64,000 nt of DNA from Persicimonas caeni (GCF_006517175.1 NZ_CP041186.1:1825001-1889000), one strand, 5' to 3'. Counted from the stretch's first letter, positions 55,278 to 62,032 are shown. The notes: generated by a model not told the origin, from the letters alone. Program-made: numbers and translations.

Positions 55278-55961
55278 TTAGTTCGACGACTTCACCGGTC
55301 GGAACGGATGGACGAAGCGTGCGAGCGCGTCCGCGCTGCGGGTCGACACCCATACGGTGCCCTGGCCGCGGAATTCACACACGTAGCCCTCGCCGCCGCC
55401 GAAGAAGCTCTTCAGGCCACCCACCGAGCGCAGGTCGTAGTCGAGCCCGCCGGTGAACGCGACGATGTGGTTGTTGTCGACGATATAGCCGCCGGGGCCG
55501 ACTTCGACGGCGTGGATGCCGCCGTAGCTTCCTACGAACAGCGGGCCGGTGCCGTCGGCGCGCACCATGAACATGCTCGTGCCGCTGAAGAAGCCCTTGC
55601 CGCCCTGCCACTTGGTGTCCAGGTCGATGTCGGGGCCGCAGGCCACGAAGTTATCCGAGCTCATGAACACCGGCTCGGTGCCGTCCATGTCGAAGGTCAT
55701 CAGGTCGCCCGAGCCGGGAGGGGCAAACCAGATGGTCTCGCCGGCGCTCGAGGCGGTAAACGTGTTCTGAAAGAGGCTCTCGCCGCCCAGAAGCTTGCGC
55801 TTGGCCGCGCCCATCAGGCCGCCGCGCATCTCGGTCTTCATCTGCAGTTCGGTCGACTTGGCCACCATGGCGCTGGCCTCGAGCACGATCTGCTCGCCAG
55901 TCTGCTCGAACTCGACCTTGGCGATGGCGAAATTCGGATTGGAAAGGATTTCGTATTTCAT
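55278..55961 (-). CDS. AIM24-family protein, third of three
   Basis: 227 residues. It matches the AIM24/TIGR00266 family of beta-rich proteins (FEQTGEQIVLEASAMVAKST, ESLFQNTFTA, VGSYGGIHAVEVGPGGYIVD, CEFRGQGTVWVSTRS). Yeast Aim24 supports mitochondrial complex assembly; the bacterial role is unknown. No signal peptide is seen, so it is probably cytoplasmic. It is the last gene of a three-gene operon (gap of 54 bases) and the most diverged in its ends. It lacks the conserved Met-rich N-terminus seen in the other two. Confidence 0.9.
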   Translation of the reverse strand: MKYEILSNPNFAIAKVEFEQTGEQIVLEASAMVAKSTELQMKTEMRGGLMGAAKRKLLGGESLFQNTFTASSAGETIWFAPPGSGDLMTFDMDGTEPVFMSSDNFVACGPDIDLDTKWQGGKGFFSGTSMFMVRADGTGPLFVGSYGGIHAVEVGPGGYIVDNNHIVAFTGGLDYDLRSVGGLKSFFGGGEGYVCEFRGQGTVWVSTRSADALARFVHPFRPVKSSN

Positions 55962-56015
55962 CTGTATCTCGTGTCTGGCTGAATGGACAGACGTCCGAAG
56001 TCTTGATTGCGCGGT

Positions 56016-56729
56016 TTAGGCGTTTCGGGGCGGAAGCATATCCCCGACGGCCCGGCCGAACTCGATCGGCTGGCGCGTCTGGAGCCACACCCGGCCCTGT
56101 CCGCTGATCTCGAAGACCTTGCCCTCGCCCGAGAGCAGAGAGCCAAGCCAGCTCGACGATGCCTTCTTCAGGTTCAACTGCAGCGTGGAGTCCCAGGCGA
56201 CCAGGTGACCGTTGTCGATGACGATGGAGCCGTCGACCTGCATCTCTTCGATGCCGCCAAAGGCGCCGATGACCACCTGCTGACCGGGTGCGGTCGGGGT
56301 CGCTTCGAGCACGAACAAGCCCTCGCCGCCAAAGAAGGTCTTAGCGCCGCCCATCTTCGCCTCGATGTCCACCCCGGGGGTGTTGGCGATATAGGCGCCC
56401 GACTGCATGGTGATGCCCGTCTGGGGGACTTCCTCGACGAAGATGTCGCCGGTCAGTGCCTGAGCCAAGAGCACCTCACCGGGGCCGCCGGCGGCAGTGA
56501 AGGTGTTGGTGAAGAACGACTCGCCGCTGAGCATCTGCTTGGCGGCGCTGGCGATTTTCCCCAGCAGGCCGCCCTTCTTTTGCTTGGACGACTCGCGCAT
56601 GCCGGTCGACATGCTCACGTTGGTGCTCATGCCGATCATCGCGCCCGGCTCGGCGACGACCTGCTCGCCGTTCTCCAAGCTGACGCACGCGATGCTGTTG
56701 GTGGGACGATATTTGATCTCGATATTCAT
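56016..56729 (-). CDS. AIM24-family protein, second of three
   Basis: 237 residues with GAGGT 6 bases before the ATG. Family blocks: VAEPGAMIGMSTNVSMSTGM, GESFFTNTFTAAGGPGEVLL, GAFGGIEEMQVDGSIVIDNG and FEISGQGRVWLQTRQP. The repeated strands form the trimer-type jelly-roll fold known from family structures. An extra Lys-rich segment (RESSKQKKGGLLGKIASAAK) lies in one loop and could touch membrane or nucleic acid. It is located between two paralogues, with gaps of 86 and 54 bases, so cotranscription is likely. Confidence 0.9.
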   Translation of the reverse strand: MNIEIKYRPTNSIACVSLENGEQVVAEPGAMIGMSTNVSMSTGMRESSKQKKGGLLGKIASAAKQMLSGESFFTNTFTAAGGPGEVLLAQALTGDIFVEEVPQTGITMQSGAYIANTPGVDIEAKMGGAKTFFGGEGLFVLEATPTAPGQQVVIGAFGGIEEMQVDGSIVIDNGHLVAWDSTLQLNLKKASSSWLGSLLSGEGKVFEISGQGRVWLQTRQPIEFGRAVGDMLPPRNA

Positions 56730-56815
56730 CGATAAACCTCAATTCTTTGCATCTAACGAAAGCGTGACACAAAAGCGTCGGCGTCACGCAAGCCCCAAAG
56801 GCTCCGTCAGCTCAC

Positions 56816-57514
56816 TCAGTTGGGAAGCATGGGCGTGAGCCATTCGGCCAGCGCCGAACGGTTACGTGTCTGGATATAGACGGTGCCCTGGCCGCGAAAC
56901 TCCTTGACCAAACCTTCGCCCGAGGCGAACAGCCCGGTGAGTCCGCCGCCGACGCTCTTGGTCTTTTTCTCCAGCGACCCCTCGTAGGCGACAATATGGC
57001 CGTCGTCGACCACGTAGCTGCCGTTGACCTCGATCTGCTGGATGCCCCCGTAGCTGTTGAACCACAGATCCCCGGTGCCGGTGGCCACCAGCTTGAAGGT
57101 GCTCTTCCATGGAATCAGCAGGCCCTTGAGCCCGCCGAACTTGACCGCAATCTGCACGTCTCCGCTGGAGGCCAGATACGCGCCCTTGGCCAGGTTGATC
57201 GTCTCGCCGTTGAGCCGGCGGTGGTGGATATCGCCCATATACGTCGGCGAGACCCACACCTGGCCGCCCTGGGCGGCGTTGTAGTGGTTGAACATGATCG
57301 ACTCGCCCCCGAAGAACTTCTTGGCCAAGGCAAAGAAGAAGGTGATCAGCTTGGCGAAAAAGCCGGTCTTGTCGTCGGCGCTCATCTTGGCTTGGAGATC
57401 GATGTCGCGCGACATGGCGATCATGGCACCCGGCTCGGACACAAACTTTTCACCCGGCTCGAGATCGACGCGGAGCATCGAGAACCCGGGTTTGTGAGTG
57501 ACTTCGTGCTGCAT
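56816..57514 (-). CDS. AIM24-family protein, first of three
   Basis: 232 residues from the ATG at 57514, with GGAGG about 9 bases upstream; the longer frame back to 57637 lacks family similarity. It carries the AIM24 pattern (VSEPGAMIAMSRDIDLQAKM, GESIMFNHYNAAQGGQVWVS, NSYGGIQQIEVNGSYVVDDG and EFRGQGTVYIQTRNRSALAE), plus a hydrophobic helix-like loop (TGFFAKLITFFFALAKKFFG) that might associate with membrane. It is the promoter-proximal gene of the operon; a perfect 12-base inverted repeat lies about 110 bases upstream. Confidence 0.91.
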   Translation of the reverse strand: MQHEVTHKPGFSMLRVDLEPGEKFVSEPGAMIAMSRDIDLQAKMSADDKTGFFAKLITFFFALAKKFFGGESIMFNHYNAAQGGQVWVSPTYMGDIHHRRLNGETINLAKGAYLASSGDVQIAVKFGGLKGLLIPWKSTFKLVATGTGDLWFNSYGGIQQIEVNGSYVVDDGHIVAYEGSLEKKTKSVGGGLTGLFASGEGLVKEFRGQGTVYIQTRNRSALAEWLTPMLPN

Positions 57515-57623
57515 TACACATGCCTCCAGGAGGGGGTCGGTGACGAAAAAAGTGCTGCTTTTTGGTTGTTCGAGAACGCAATCACCATACGCCCCTCCCC
57601 TTGATTGAGCAAGCGCTGTGATT

Positions 57624-57672
57624 ACTGGAGCTTCCACCCGGCCACCACAGTTGCCACCACGGAAGCTCCAGT
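57624..57672. promoter_or_regulatory. Inverted and direct repeats in a divergent promoter
   Basis: ACTGGAGCTTCC (57624-57635) and GGAAGCTCCAGT (57661-57672) are perfect inverted arms. CAGTTGCCACCA also occurs twice in direct orientation at about 57648 and 57670. They lie between the AIM24 operon (minus) and the Kazal lipoprotein (plus), so shared regulation is possible. Confidence 0.45.
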
Positions 57673-57802: not shown

Positions 57803-58630
57803 ATGAGCAAGACCGACAAAGTTTTGACAGTCCTGTCCGGCGTGATGGGCGCGCTGGTACTGCTGAGCATCTTGGCCTGTGGTGGCAGCGGCGGAGGCGG
57901 TGAAGAGCCGTCGCCGACCTCGAGCTTCGACGACTGCGGCGGCATCCAAGGGCTGACCTGCCAGGAGCCCGGCGAAGTGTGCATCTTCGAGCAGTCCCAA
58001 AATTGCGGACGCTGGGATCAGATGGGCACCTGCCAGCTGCCGCCCGAGATCTGCACCCGCGAGTACATGCCGGTGTGCGGCTGCGACGGCCAGACCTACA
58101 ACAACGAGTGTGAAGCACGCGGCGCCGGCGTGTCGGTCGAGTCTCAGGGCGAGTGCCCGACCACCGGCCAAGACTGCGGCGGACGCCTGGGCAACACGTG
58201 CGCAGCCGACGAGCTGTGCGTCTACGAAGAGACCGCTCAATGTGGTTGGGCCGATGCTACCGGCACCTGCCAGCCCCAGCCGACCTTCTGCACCGAGAAC
58301 TACGCTCCGGTGTGCGGCTGCGACGGCCAGACCTACTCCAACGAGTGCAAGGCCCACGCGGCGGGCACCTCGGTGCTGCACACCGGCACCTGCCAGACCA
58401 ACGGCTGCTCGAGCAACGCCGACTGCGCTCCCGACGACTTCTGCGCCTTCGACGACGCCGCCCAGTGTGGCGCCAGCGGCCAGGGCACCTGCACCTCGCG
58501 CCCCGATTACTGCACCCAGCACTACGATCCGGTGTGCGGCTGCGACGGGCGTACCTACTCCAACTCGTGCATGGCCGCCAACCAAGGCGCCTCCATCGCC
58601 CACGACGGCCCCTGCTCGACCAACCAGTAA
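57803..58630 (+). CDS. Lipoprotein with three Kazal-type domains
   Basis: 275 residues; GAGGA lies 8 bases before the ATG. A lipoprotein signal ([13 protein letters not shown], then Cys26) is followed by three Cys-rich modules, each with the Kazal signature [28 protein letters not shown] and [14 protein letters not shown]. Each is preceded by another CxxxDDFCxF-like half. Kazal domains inhibit serine proteases, so this surface protein may defend the cell against host, prey or self proteases. Such multi-Kazal lipoproteins are frequent in deltaproteobacteria; the target is unknown. Confidence 0.9.
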
Positions 58631-58794
58631 CTCCCAGCGCGCTTAGCTGGAGCGCCCCCCCCGGCGCGGTTGCACTCGTCGGGGTGGCTCGGTAGAATCC
58701 ACCGAGTCATCCCGACACGATTTTTCCGAGTGTAGTGCCGCAGCTCCGGGACCCGGACACCACGGCCCTACCGACCCCAACCGGGCCGAGTTCG

Positions 58795-60195
58795 ATGACC
58801 GACAAAAAACCGTCACCTGACCAGGGCACAACCGGGCTGGGTGTCCAAGCCCTCGGACTGGCCGTTTTGGCCTTTATCGTGGGTGCCACGGTAACCCGCT
58901 TCGAGACCTTCCCCTATCCGCAGCTGCTCGAGGCCCCCTTCGAGGCCCTGCAAGCTCACGGCGAGCAGATCCAACTGGGCACGCTCCCCAAGACCGAAGC
59001 CAACTTCTGGGCGCCCGCGCGCACCGACCAAACCGGCGTGACCGTCTACGAAAAAGGCGAGGCCTTCGAGGGCTACACGCTGTATACCTCCGGGCACAAC
59101 CACGGCGCTCAGCTCATCGACATGCAGGGCAAGGTGCTCCACGAGTGGGAGGTCCCCTTCGACAAGGCGTGGTCGGACCCGCCGCACCTCTCCTCGCCGA
59201 TGGACGCGCGCTTTATCTACTGGCGAGACGCCCACATCTTCCCCAACGGGGACGTCATCACCCAGTATTACGCGGCCGGCGACACCCCGTACGGCTACGG
59301 GATGATCAAGGTCGACAAAGACTCCAATATCCTGTGGCGCTACGCCGACAACGCCCACCACGACCTATTCGTGGCCGACGACGACACCATCTGGACGATC
59401 GGCCAGGCGTTCCGCGACACCGACGAGCGCCCCGTGCAGGGCGCGCCGCAGCTCGAGCCCAAGGTGCTCGAAGACTTCATCATCCAGCTCTCCCCGGAGG
59501 GCAAAGAAATCTTGCGCATCCCCGTGTTCGAGGCGCTGGCGGACACGCCCTACGAGCATATGCTCAGCTTCTACACCAATTTCCGGGCCGAAGACGCGCC
59601 CTGGGACCCGCTGCACACCAACTCCATCGAGATCGTCGGCCGCGAATTCGCCAGCCATCACGACTTCGCCGAGCCGGGCATGGTGCTCATCTCCATCCGC
59701 TCGATGGACGCGCTGGTTCTGGTCGATCTGGAGACCGAAAAGGCGGTGTGGGCCACCCGCGGCTTCTGGCTGCACCAGCACGACCCCGACGCGCTTCCCA
59801 ACGGGCGCATCCAGCTATTCGACAACCGCGGCCACGTCGGCCACGGCGGCGGCTCGCGCATCATCGAGTTCGATCCCCGAAACAACGCGATGACCTGGGT
59901 GTACGCCGGCGACGAGGAGAACTACTTTTACAGCAAGATTCGCTCGAAGCAGCAGCAACTGCCCAACGGCAACCTGCTCATCAGCTCCCACGAGCCCGGG
60001 CGCATCTTCGAGGTCACCCGCGATAAAAAGATCGTCTGGGAGTTCTTCAGCCCCCACCGCCACGAGGAGGACGGCACCGAGTACGTCGCTGCCGTCAGCG
60101 GCGTGATGCGCGTGCCCAAAGACTACCTCGACTTTAGAATGACCGGCCCCAAAACGACCGACAACAACGCCGACAAGCAAGCCCAGACCGAGTGA
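58795..60195 (+). CDS. Arylsulfotransferase (ASST)-family protein, membrane-anchored
   Basis: 466 residues from the ATG at 58795; no strong ribosome site. One N-terminal helix (GVQALGLAVLAFIVGATVT) anchors an extracytoplasmic domain that matches the ASST/arylsulfotransferase propeller: YTLYTSGHNHGAQLIDMQGK, WRDAHIFPNGDVITQYYA, NAHHDLFVADDDTIWTI, LHTNSIEIVG and HQHDPDALPNGRIQLFDNRG. Several His that could carry the sulfuryl group are conserved in position, though the catalytic His cannot be fixed without alignment. Classical ASST moves sulfate between phenolic compounds without PAPS. It opens a four-gene cluster ending in a PAPS-type sulfotransferase. Confidence 0.88.
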   Translation: MTDKKPSPDQGTTGLGVQALGLAVLAFIVGATVTRFETFPYPQLLEAPFEALQAHGEQIQLGTLPKTEANFWAPARTDQTGVTVYEKGEAFEGYTLYTSGHNHGAQLIDMQGKVLHEWEVPFDKAWSDPPHLSSPMDARFIYWRDAHIFPNGDVITQYYAAGDTPYGYGMIKVDKDSNILWRYADNAHHDLFVADDDTIWTIGQAFRDTDERPVQGAPQLEPKVLEDFIIQLSPEGKEILRIPVFEALADTPYEHMLSFYTNFRAEDAPWDPLHTNSIEIVGREFASHHDFAEPGMVLISIRSMDALVLVDLETEKAVWATRGFWLHQHDPDALPNGRIQLFDNRGHVGHGGGSRIIEFDPRNNAMTWVYAGDEENYFYSKIRSKQQQLPNGNLLISSHEPGRIFEVTRDKKIVWEFFSPHRHEEDGTEYVAAVSGVMRVPKDYLDFRMTGPKTTDNNADKQAQTE

Positions 60196-60200
60196 CCACC

Positions 60201-60479
60201 ATGGACGTATTTAGTTTCACCGGCGCAGCCCTCCTGACGAGCGTGGTCGCCTATATCGGCCCCGGCCCCGGCTTGAGCATGCTCACCGCCCTGCTCGGCC
60301 TGCTGGGCACGGTGCTTCTCGCTATCGTGGCGGTGTTCTTCCAGCCGCTTCGCATTCTGTGGCGCAAGATGCGCAACGGGTCGAGCGACGCGGACGCCGA
60401 CGCGGCCGACGACGAGCAGGCCGAAGACGCGGCCGGCGAGGGTGAAGACGACGCCGACGAGGTCCGCTCGGATGCTTGA
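60201..60479 (+). CDS. Small membrane protein (YIGPG type) with acidic tail
   Basis: 92 residues from the ATG at 60201, 5 bases after the ASST stop; an in-frame GTG at 60192 overlaps that stop. Two hydrophobic helices around a YIGPGPGLSML turn are followed by FFQPLRILWRK and a strongly acidic tail (DADADAADDEQAEDAAGEGE). I have the impression that short proteins with this GPGxGLS turn often sit in envelope-polymer clusters, but I cannot name the family. Its stop overlaps the next start by 8 bases, so it is cotranslated with the DUF106-like gene. Confidence 0.75.
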   Translation: MDVFSFTGAALLTSVVAYIGPGPGLSMLTALLGLLGTVLLAIVAVFFQPLRILWRKMRNGSSDADADAADDEQAEDAAGEGEDDADEVRSDA

Positions 60480-60921
60480 TGCGCTGTTCTCACCGGTCGA
60501 CTCGCTGTTGAGCTTCATGCCGTTTTGGTTGCGCGTGAGCACCTGGGGACTGGTGCTCGGCGCGGCCACCATGCTCGTCTACAAGTGGTTGTCTCCTCAG
60601 GAAAAGATCGCCGACATCGCCCAGCGCGCCGCCGACGCCCGCCGAAAGATGCAAGCCTACAAGGGCGACGACATGTCCGAAGTGATGGGCCTGGTCAAGC
60701 GCTCGCTGGCGCTCTCTTTCGAGCAGATGAAGTTCGTGCTCGGCCCCACCCTGGTGGCCGCCGCGCCGGTGCTGCTGGCGATGTATTGGATGGAGGGCGC
60801 CTGGGAGGGAAAAGAGGCGCTCGCCTGGGGCCCCGAGCTCGTGCGCACCTGGCATACGACCTTTCTGGCGGCGATGAGCGTGTCGGCTCTCGGCCTCAAG
60901 CTGGGCCTGGGAATCAAGTAG
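60472..60921 (+). CDS. DUF106/EMC3-like membrane protein (Oxa1-superfamily architecture)
   Basis: 149 residues from the ATG at 60472. Layout: a first hydrophobic helix (about 10-40), a charged amphipathic helical hairpin (about 42-85, QEKIADIAQRAADARRKMQA), then two further helices (about 92-115 and 130-145). This TM1, coiled-coil, TM2-TM3 order with a KFVLGPTLVAAAPVLLAMYW block is that of DUF106, EMC3 and YidC/Oxa1-type insertases. Archaeal DUF106 proteins are thought to assist membrane insertion. A bacterial member inside a sulfuryl-transfer operon is unusual; assignment rests on architecture, not on alignment. Confidence 0.62.
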   Translation: MLDALFSPVDSLLSFMPFWLRVSTWGLVLGAATMLVYKWLSPQEKIADIAQRAADARRKMQAYKGDDMSEVMGLVKRSLALSFEQMKFVLGPTLVAAAPVLLAMYWMEGAWEGKEALAWGPELVRTWHTTFLAAMSVSALGLKLGLGIK

Positions 60922-60922
60922 T

Positions 60923-62032
60923 ATGGCCTACGACGCCTTCCACGTGCCCCTGAGCCGCCACCTGACCTCCGGGATGGTGCACGCCACCCGCTGGCTGTGG
61001 CGCTGGATGGGCAACCTCGAGACCAAGATGCTCGCCGACCAGCTCGACGCGCAGACCATCGAGGCGCCCGTCTATATCACCGGGCTGGCGCGCGCGGGCA
61101 CGACCATCCTGCTCGAGATCATCGCCCGCCACCCCCACGTCGCCACCCACCAGTACCGCGACTTTCCGTTTATCTACACGCCCTTTTGGTGGCACCAGAC
61201 GCTGCAGCAAAACGCGCCCAAGCAGCTCGAATCCGCCGAGCGCGCCCACGGCGACCGCCTCGAGGTGACCCCCGAGAGTCCCGAGGCGATGGAAGAGATG
61301 CTGTGGATGGCCTTTTTCGACGGCCTGCACGACCCGTCGCAGTCGAACGTGCTCGACGCCGACACCACAAACGAAAAATTCGAGCGCTTCTACCGCGACC
61401 ACATCCGAAAGCTGCTGCTCGCCGAGGGCAAGACACGCTACGCCGCCAAGGGCAACTACAACGTCACCCGCCTCGAGTACCTGCTCGCGCTCTTCCCCGA
61501 TGCGCGGTTCATCGTGCCGGTGCGCCGGCCGCAAAACCAAGTCGCCTCGCTCCGAAAGCAGCACAAGCTCTTCACGAAGGCCGCCCGAGAACACCCGCGT
61601 TCGGTCGCCCACCTGCAGCGCGTCGGCCACTACGAGTTCGGCGCCGACCGCCGCGCCATCAACGCCGGCGACCGCAAGCTGGTCGCGTCTGTGGAAAGCC
61701 TGTGGAAAACCGACACCTCGGCGGACCAGGTGCGCGGCTGGGCCCGCTACTGGGCGCACCTGTACGGCTATTTGGCCGACCGCCTCGACGCCAACCCCAA
61801 GCTTCGCGACGCCGTGCACCTGGTGCGCTACGAAGATCTCTGCTCGAACACCGAACGAGAACTGCACGCCCTGCTCGATCACGCCCAACTGACCGACTCC
61901 CAAGACGCCATCGTCGCCCACTACGCCGAGCGTATCTCGGCGCCGAGTTATTATTCGCCGGATTTTTCGGATGAAGAACGGGCCGCGATCGACGAGGAGA
62001 CGGCGGAAGTGGCGGGGTGGTTTGGGTATTGA
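60923..62032 (+). CDS. Sulfotransferase-family protein
   Basis: 369 residues starting one base after the previous stop. The PAPS-binding P-loop-like motif is GLARAGTTILLEII (about residues 54-67), the 3'-phosphate region is VPVRRPQNQVAS (about 195), and LVRYEDLCSNTERELHALLD matches the family C-terminal block. It should transfer sulfate from PAPS to a hydroxyl or amine acceptor, probably a carbohydrate or lipid. It is cytoplasmic, unlike the ASST domain upstream, so the two would act on opposite sides of the membrane. Last gene of the operon. Confidence 0.87.
   Translation: MAYDAFHVPLSRHLTSGMVHATRWLWRWMGNLETKMLADQLDAQTIEAPVYITGLARAGTTILLEIIARHPHVATHQYRDFPFIYTPFWWHQTLQQNAPKQLESAERAHGDRLEVTPESPEAMEEMLWMAFFDGLHDPSQSNVLDADTTNEKFERFYRDHIRKLLLAEGKTRYAAKGNYNVTRLEYLLALFPDARFIVPVRRPQNQVASLRKQHKLFTKAAREHPRSVAHLQRVGHYEFGADRRAINAGDRKLVASVESLWKTDTSADQVRGWARYWAHLYGYLADRLDANPKLRDAVHLVRYEDLCSNTERELHALLDHAQLTDSQDAIVAHYAERISAPSYYSPDFSDEERAAIDEETAEVAGWFGY

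Follow-up and report, generated by a model that had tools for sequence, protein, structure and literature searches.

Near the end of the stretch of Persicimonas caeni DNA analysed here (64,000 nucleotides, hereafter the window), positions 58795-62032 hold four intact genes, all open and in frame from an ATG start on the plus strand. In order, they encode an arylsulfate sulfotransferase-like protein (ASST, 58795..60195, 466 aa), a small membrane protein with a YIGPG turn (GPG, 60201..60479, 92 aa), a second small membrane protein (M, 60472..60921, 149 aa), and a sulfotransferase (ST, 60923..62032, 369 aa). The gaps between them are +5, −8, and +1 bases, exactly the spacing given in an earlier note on this DNA, and the coexpression that the note drew from it is supported. 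A strong terminator-like hairpin on the same strand (58678..58716, a 16-pair stem followed by a T run, identified by pattern match only) sits between the operon and the gene directly upstream, which encodes a protein with three Kazal domains (57803-58627, plus strand). Farther upstream, 3 tandem AIM24 (PF01987) genes occupy 55281-57637 on the minus strand. The host genome is a single contig of 8.05 Mb. GPG and M gave nothing over cut-off in Pfam or NCBIfam.

The first gene product matches PF14269 (E=2.4e-37, 129.4 bits against a cut-off of 27) and PF05935 (E=2.1e-11, 43.9 bits against a cut-off of 24.2), and is predicted to consist of a signal-anchor followed by an exported, PAPS-independent arylsulfate sulfotransferase domain of the beta-propeller type. 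Its single N-terminal hydrophobic segment (residues 15-33 by hydropathy) would leave this domain anchored outside the cytoplasm, where the earlier note had also placed it. The putative catalytic residues H188/H189, H274, N276, R302, and H329 are kept, with H189, H274, N276, and H329 conserved throughout (64/64), R302 in 63/64, and H188 in 62/64. In the family profile, the HH motif (H188/H189) aligns with the THES of AssT 3elq at 251-254 (position 252), and H329, which lies in a QH motif, aligns with position 436, the sulfated nucleophile of AssT. The AssT catalytic residues are H252, H356, R374, and H436; the ASST counterpart of H356 was set by motif and that of R374 by spacing rather than from a printed alignment. 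The AssT-DsbL-DsbI system of uropathogenic E. coli is similar in that its ASST is periplasmic and its catalytic residues (H252, R374, and H436 of 3elq) match those seen here, but the AssT operon carries a thiol-oxidase pair and no PAPS sulfotransferase, GPG, or M.

The fourth gene product matches PF13469 (Sulfotransfer_3; E=2.3e-19, 71 bits against a cut-off of 27). It contains a P-loop, GLARAGTT, and a 3'-phosphate site at R201/S209, and residues R57, G59, T61, R201, and S209 are invariant across five diverse relatives; YRDFPF and ERAHGD are further signatures of the family. Hydropathy places its only hydrophobic segment at the P-loop region, and it has no export signal. A model of a relative in which M and ST are fused (pLDDT 86.9) matched mycobacterial STF9 and STF1 and the tyrosylprotein sulfotransferase TPST2 in Foldseek with E ~1e-5. 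ST is predicted to be a PAPS-dependent sulfotransferase, and the PAPS-type enzyme that the earlier note envisaged inside the cell is supported.

The earlier note had proposed looking for the same genes side by side in other genomes, and this search found the set recurring across phyla, so that the note's main ground for refutation, rarity of the four genes as neighbors elsewhere, did not hold. Among 58 related genomes searched for ST, it was present at high similarity in 5 (the host genome G000 and G015, G035, G043, and G049) and rare in the others. G035 and G049 have the genes in the order ASST-GPG-ST; G043 has ASST-GPG on one contig and ST on another, and in G015 M-ST runs to the contig edge. 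The operon in G035 reads cysD-cysN/C-ASST-GPG-M/ST-sulfatase, with the last gene belonging to the PF00884 sulfatase family, and the presence of PAPS-making cysD and cysN/C in a relative's operon lends support to the note's general theme of sulfation. Single loci with tandem or triple ASST copies were also seen (L039, on contig C38 of G015, and L127).

A scan of GTDB using one genome per species and ST as the only anchor returned 80 loci from at least six phyla, with lineages, as given in database records, that include the Alpha- and Gammaproteobacteria, Desulfobacterota, Myxococcota/Bradymonadaceae, Bacteroidota, Planctomycetes, and Gemmatimonadetes. The hosts are many unrelated bacteria, often marine, with Halomonas cupida, H. 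stenophila, and Yoonia as examples. Adding the window and two relatives and removing two duplicates gave a set of 81 ST-anchored loci, in which genes within 8 kb and on the same strand as ST were counted as neighbors. GPG occurs in 78 of these loci, M in 78, ASST in 71, and all four genes in 67. Fourteen loci are incomplete, and in ten of them a contig ends no more than 3.5 kb away; two non-edge loci in the whole set have no ASST nearby. Clustering of the neighbors revealed no recurring family around the module beyond ASST, GPG, M, and ST, and protein P0003 had no relative on plasmids. The recurrence of the four-gene set across phyla is far beyond chance.

Since the loci counted here had also supplied the profiles for GPG, M, and in part ASST, a sample of 201 Halomonadaceae genomes was chosen independently of the module. 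GPG is encoded in 19 of these genomes, in one copy each, and M and ST adjoin it in all 19. All 19 carriers also encode a full-length ASST, adjacent in 15 and elsewhere in the genome in 4, compared with a full-length ASST of the module clade in 1 of the 182 genomes without GPG (Fisher p=1e-25, with relatedness not corrected for). The 4 genomes in which ASST lies away from GPG-M-ST indicate that close linkage is not obligatory. Module-type GPG is single-copy in each of 16 module genomes. The distance matrices of ST and ASST correlate (r=0.73, 0/2000 permutations), a correlation to which shared host ancestry may contribute. Together, the co-occurrence counts, the Halomonadaceae sample, and the matrix correlation argue that the four genes form one unit.

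Within this unit, the best reading of M is that it anchors ST in the membrane and is a free-standing form of a domain that is fused to ST elsewhere. This reading follows from the fusion of M to the front of ST in about half of the loci (41 fused and 37 separate in the 81-locus set) and, for the free form in the window's clade, from the matching helix layout and the fact that both types of M fill one slot. Hydropathy gives the window's M three hydrophobic segments, and its AF2 model (pLDDT 93) has helices at 18-40, 43-62, 68-110, and 127-146. In the model of the fused relative, the N-terminal domain has helices at 2-20, 22-41, 47-90, and 104-130, a common layout that includes an unusually long third helix. 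Free M and the fused M domain likely share one fold, as the modeled layouts agree, while profile similarity between them is weak (hhalign probability 5.7%, E=0.0067). Many relatives carry an insert of ~95 residues between TM2 and TM3 that the alignment shows to be missing from the window's M.

Two small membrane proteins do lie between the enzymes, as the earlier note had it, but its assignment of M to the DUF106/Oxa1/EMC3 group is not supported. No Oxa1-superfamily Pfam match was found among 14 and then 27 relatives of M. The structural comparison that the note had suggested for the product of 60472-60921, made with Foldseek and the pLDDT-93 model, gave no PDB match with E<0.001, and the top 50 included no member of the Oxa1 superfamily (YidC, EMC3, Get1, or TMCO1). 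We therefore reject this identity on both counts. M does resemble Oxa1, EMC3, and DUF106 proteins in its three TM helices, the first two of which are linked by a charged segment in the cytoplasm, but it has no sequence or fold match to them and instead pairs with or fuses to a sulfotransferase.

GPG has two hydrophobic segments by hydropathy that flank the YIGPG motif, in the order N-terminal hydrophobic segment, Y18-I-G-P-G turn, TM helix (28-46), and a basic and then acidic tail. The tyrosine, the G-P-G, and P49, the proline following the TM helix, are invariant in 33 relatives. In most relatives an AxA signal-peptidase-like site precedes the invariant tyrosine, and where it does, the tyrosine would lie on the outer side of the inner membrane. 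The window's GPG has no clean AxA site at this point.

PAPS is made in the cytoplasm. We infer that the four genes may constitute a dedicated membrane sulfation module working as a sulfate relay, a reading to which we give about an even chance of being correct. M would keep ST on the inner side of the cytoplasmic membrane, where ST would transfer a sulfo group from PAPS to a carrier bearing a phenolic or similarly activated hydroxyl. The charged carrier would then cross or sit in the membrane, aided by GPG and M, and the anchored ASST outside would take the sulfo group through a sulfo-histidine at H329 and pass it to an acceptor outside the cytoplasm, for which a polysaccharide, secreted or on the cell surface, is the likeliest candidate. 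The outcome would be sulfation outside the cell while PAPS remains inside. Relay, carrier, acceptor, and topology are in this way read from the co-occurrence of the genes, the M-ST fusion, and the conserved catalytic-type residues that comparison of the loci brings out. The carrier is probably phenolic, and since no carrier-making gene recurs in the module, it would be expected among the common metabolites, for example as a quinol or tyrosine-type phenol. A literature search for sulfomenaquinone as a precedent for such a carrier gave passing mentions only.

A two-step sulfation of this kind is known from caprazamycin biosynthesis in Streptomyces, where the PAPS-dependent sulfotransferase Cpz8 sulfates a triketide pyrone that then serves as the donor for the ASST Cpz4 (PMC4257720, PMC6731281). 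The module shares with this pair the joint encoding of a PAPS-dependent sulfotransferase and a PAPS-independent ASST, and the near-constant pairing of ST with ASST suggests Cpz8/Cpz4-like chemistry conducted across a membrane. The systems differ in several respects. While Cpz8 and Cpz4 are soluble, the ASST of the module would be anchored and exported and ST held by a membrane domain, with GPG and M as near-constant companions. The module has no linked type III polyketide synthase, and no aryl-carrier synthase recurs with it. Finally, the module is distributed across phyla, whereas Cpz8/Cpz4 belongs to one antibiotic pathway.

In an alternative to the relay, the two enzymes would share a product rather than a carrier: ST would sulfate a lipid-linked glycan or lipid precursor inside the cell, the precursor would be flipped, and ASST would redistribute or add sulfate outside, drawing on that product or on environmental aryl sulfates. 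This was the version offered in the earlier note, whose scheme of an acceptor sulfated inside and then moved or re-sulfated outside stands to the extent that it is one form of the favored relay, but has a two-step precedent in Cpz8/Cpz4. In its favor, almost every locus encodes both enzymes, and sulfated glycans made on lipids inside the cell are the usual model for sulfated capsules (PMC11641403). We nevertheless consider it unlikely, as the modules contain no recurring glycosyltransferase or flippase genes and ASSTs, as far as known, need activated aryl-type donors (reviewed in PMC13426309).

Several genomic contexts bear on the acceptor in the relay. PAPS is made by the host genome, where a polysaccharide cluster (L140, C1:3588000-3602000) contains cysD-cysN/C among GDP-fucose-type sugar genes, together with a GDP-mannose dehydratase, a glycosyltransferase, and another Sulfotransfer_3 gene, suggesting that this cluster makes a sulfated polysaccharide. 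In one Halomonadaceae genome (L202, G193 C1), a module-type ASST that is unlinked from the other genes lies ~9 kb from a permease-cysQ-cysD-cysN/C-capsule export cluster, which is a suggestive pointer to a polysaccharide acceptor; the neighbors of unlinked Halomonadaceae ASST copies are mostly what we take, by eye, to be the biotin operon (bioB, bioF), and the ASST at L202 adjoins bioB. The module is also found in Halomonas maura and H. stenophila, both of which make sulfated exopolysaccharides. These contexts hint, indirectly, at a polysaccharide as the ASST acceptor. The capsule clusters of Cobetia and Vibrio (kps with cysDNC and sulfotransferases) are similar in that these related marine bacteria use PAPS synthesis and sulfotransferases for a polysaccharide at the cell surface, but the descriptions consulted present sulfation as cytoplasmic and carried out by PAPS enzymes only, and mention neither ASST nor GPG.

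A function outside biosynthesis is less likely still. ST could sulfate toxic or redox-active phenols and ASST recover or exchange the sulfo group outside, giving a shuttle for detoxification or scavenging. Small phenols are substrates in vitro for members of both the ASST and ST families (PMC13426309, PMC6731281), and the module stands alone, with no biosynthetic neighbors. For detoxification, however, a strict tie to an anchored ASST and two small membrane proteins would be costly, and the operon of the relative that includes cysDNC and a sulfatase-fold gene looks biosynthetic.

The identity of GPG also bears on the relay, and a second type of operon helps to place it. In G057 and in Desulfatibacillum, a GPG segment heads a PF01663 phosphodiesterase, a fusion that occurs in ~30 of 237 sampled genomes of the phylum. 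All 13 loci examined in this phylum (L158 and L180-L191) have, behind the fusion, an ORF for a second PF01663-like enzyme and one for a member of the M family (profile E 1e-10 to 1e-20); a P-loop sulfotransferase-like protein of ~205 residues follows as well in 10 of the 13. This operon is undescribed. Very unlikely, given these fusions, is a role for GPG itself as sulfate acceptor or carrier, in which cleavage at a likely signal-peptidase site (AxA/Y-IGPG) would expose a membrane-bound tyrosine to be sulfated. In favor of this role, all 33 aligned proteins keep the tyrosine, ST is close in fold to tyrosylprotein sulfotransferases, and ASSTs sulfate tyrosine peptides according to references in a review (PMC13426309). 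Against it, the window's protein lacks the clean site before the tyrosine, and AYIGPG also heads the phosphodiesterase fusions, whose operons showed no ASST. The tyrosine thus also occurs outside ASST systems, which weakens its candidacy as an ASST-specific acceptor.

For the relay, the phosphodiesterase operons suggest a wider use of its membrane components. They resemble the module in combining the GPG and M families with a sulfotransferase-like protein in one cluster, but differ in that the exported enzyme is an alkaline-phosphatase-fold phosphodiesterase and not an ASST. The occurrence of this trio in both operon types points to a core serving different exported enzymes. We tentatively propose, as a possibility that is more doubtful than the relay itself, that GPG and M are a membrane core which can be reused with exported enzymes of unlike fold, either ASST or the phosphodiesterase: a P-loop sulfotransferase would do the charging on the inner side, and the core would carry the activated group to the exported enzyme. 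If true, the GPG and M core would be a general route to extracytoplasmic sulfo-group chemistry without PAPS export.

No description of the four-gene module was found in the mostly open-access literature that was searched. The earlier note's statement that no described system has this set agrees with the lack of an equivalent in the literature searched, but must be tempered by the Cpz8/Cpz4 precedent, a known two-step sulfation that keeps the module from being categorically new. What is new are the two unnamed membrane families, GPG and M, and the wide spread of the set.

According to a 2026 review, the natural substrates and roles of bacterial ASSTs have not been identified (PMC13426309). A widespread operon that pairs an ASST with a PAPS sulfotransferase makes the question of the donor directly testable, as whatever the partner ST produces should be that donor. 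The module would explain how bacteria could carry out sulfation outside the membrane despite making PAPS inside, and it predicts which marine bacteria sulfate molecules there. More broadly, it suggests how bacteria may move sulfate groups across the cell membrane.
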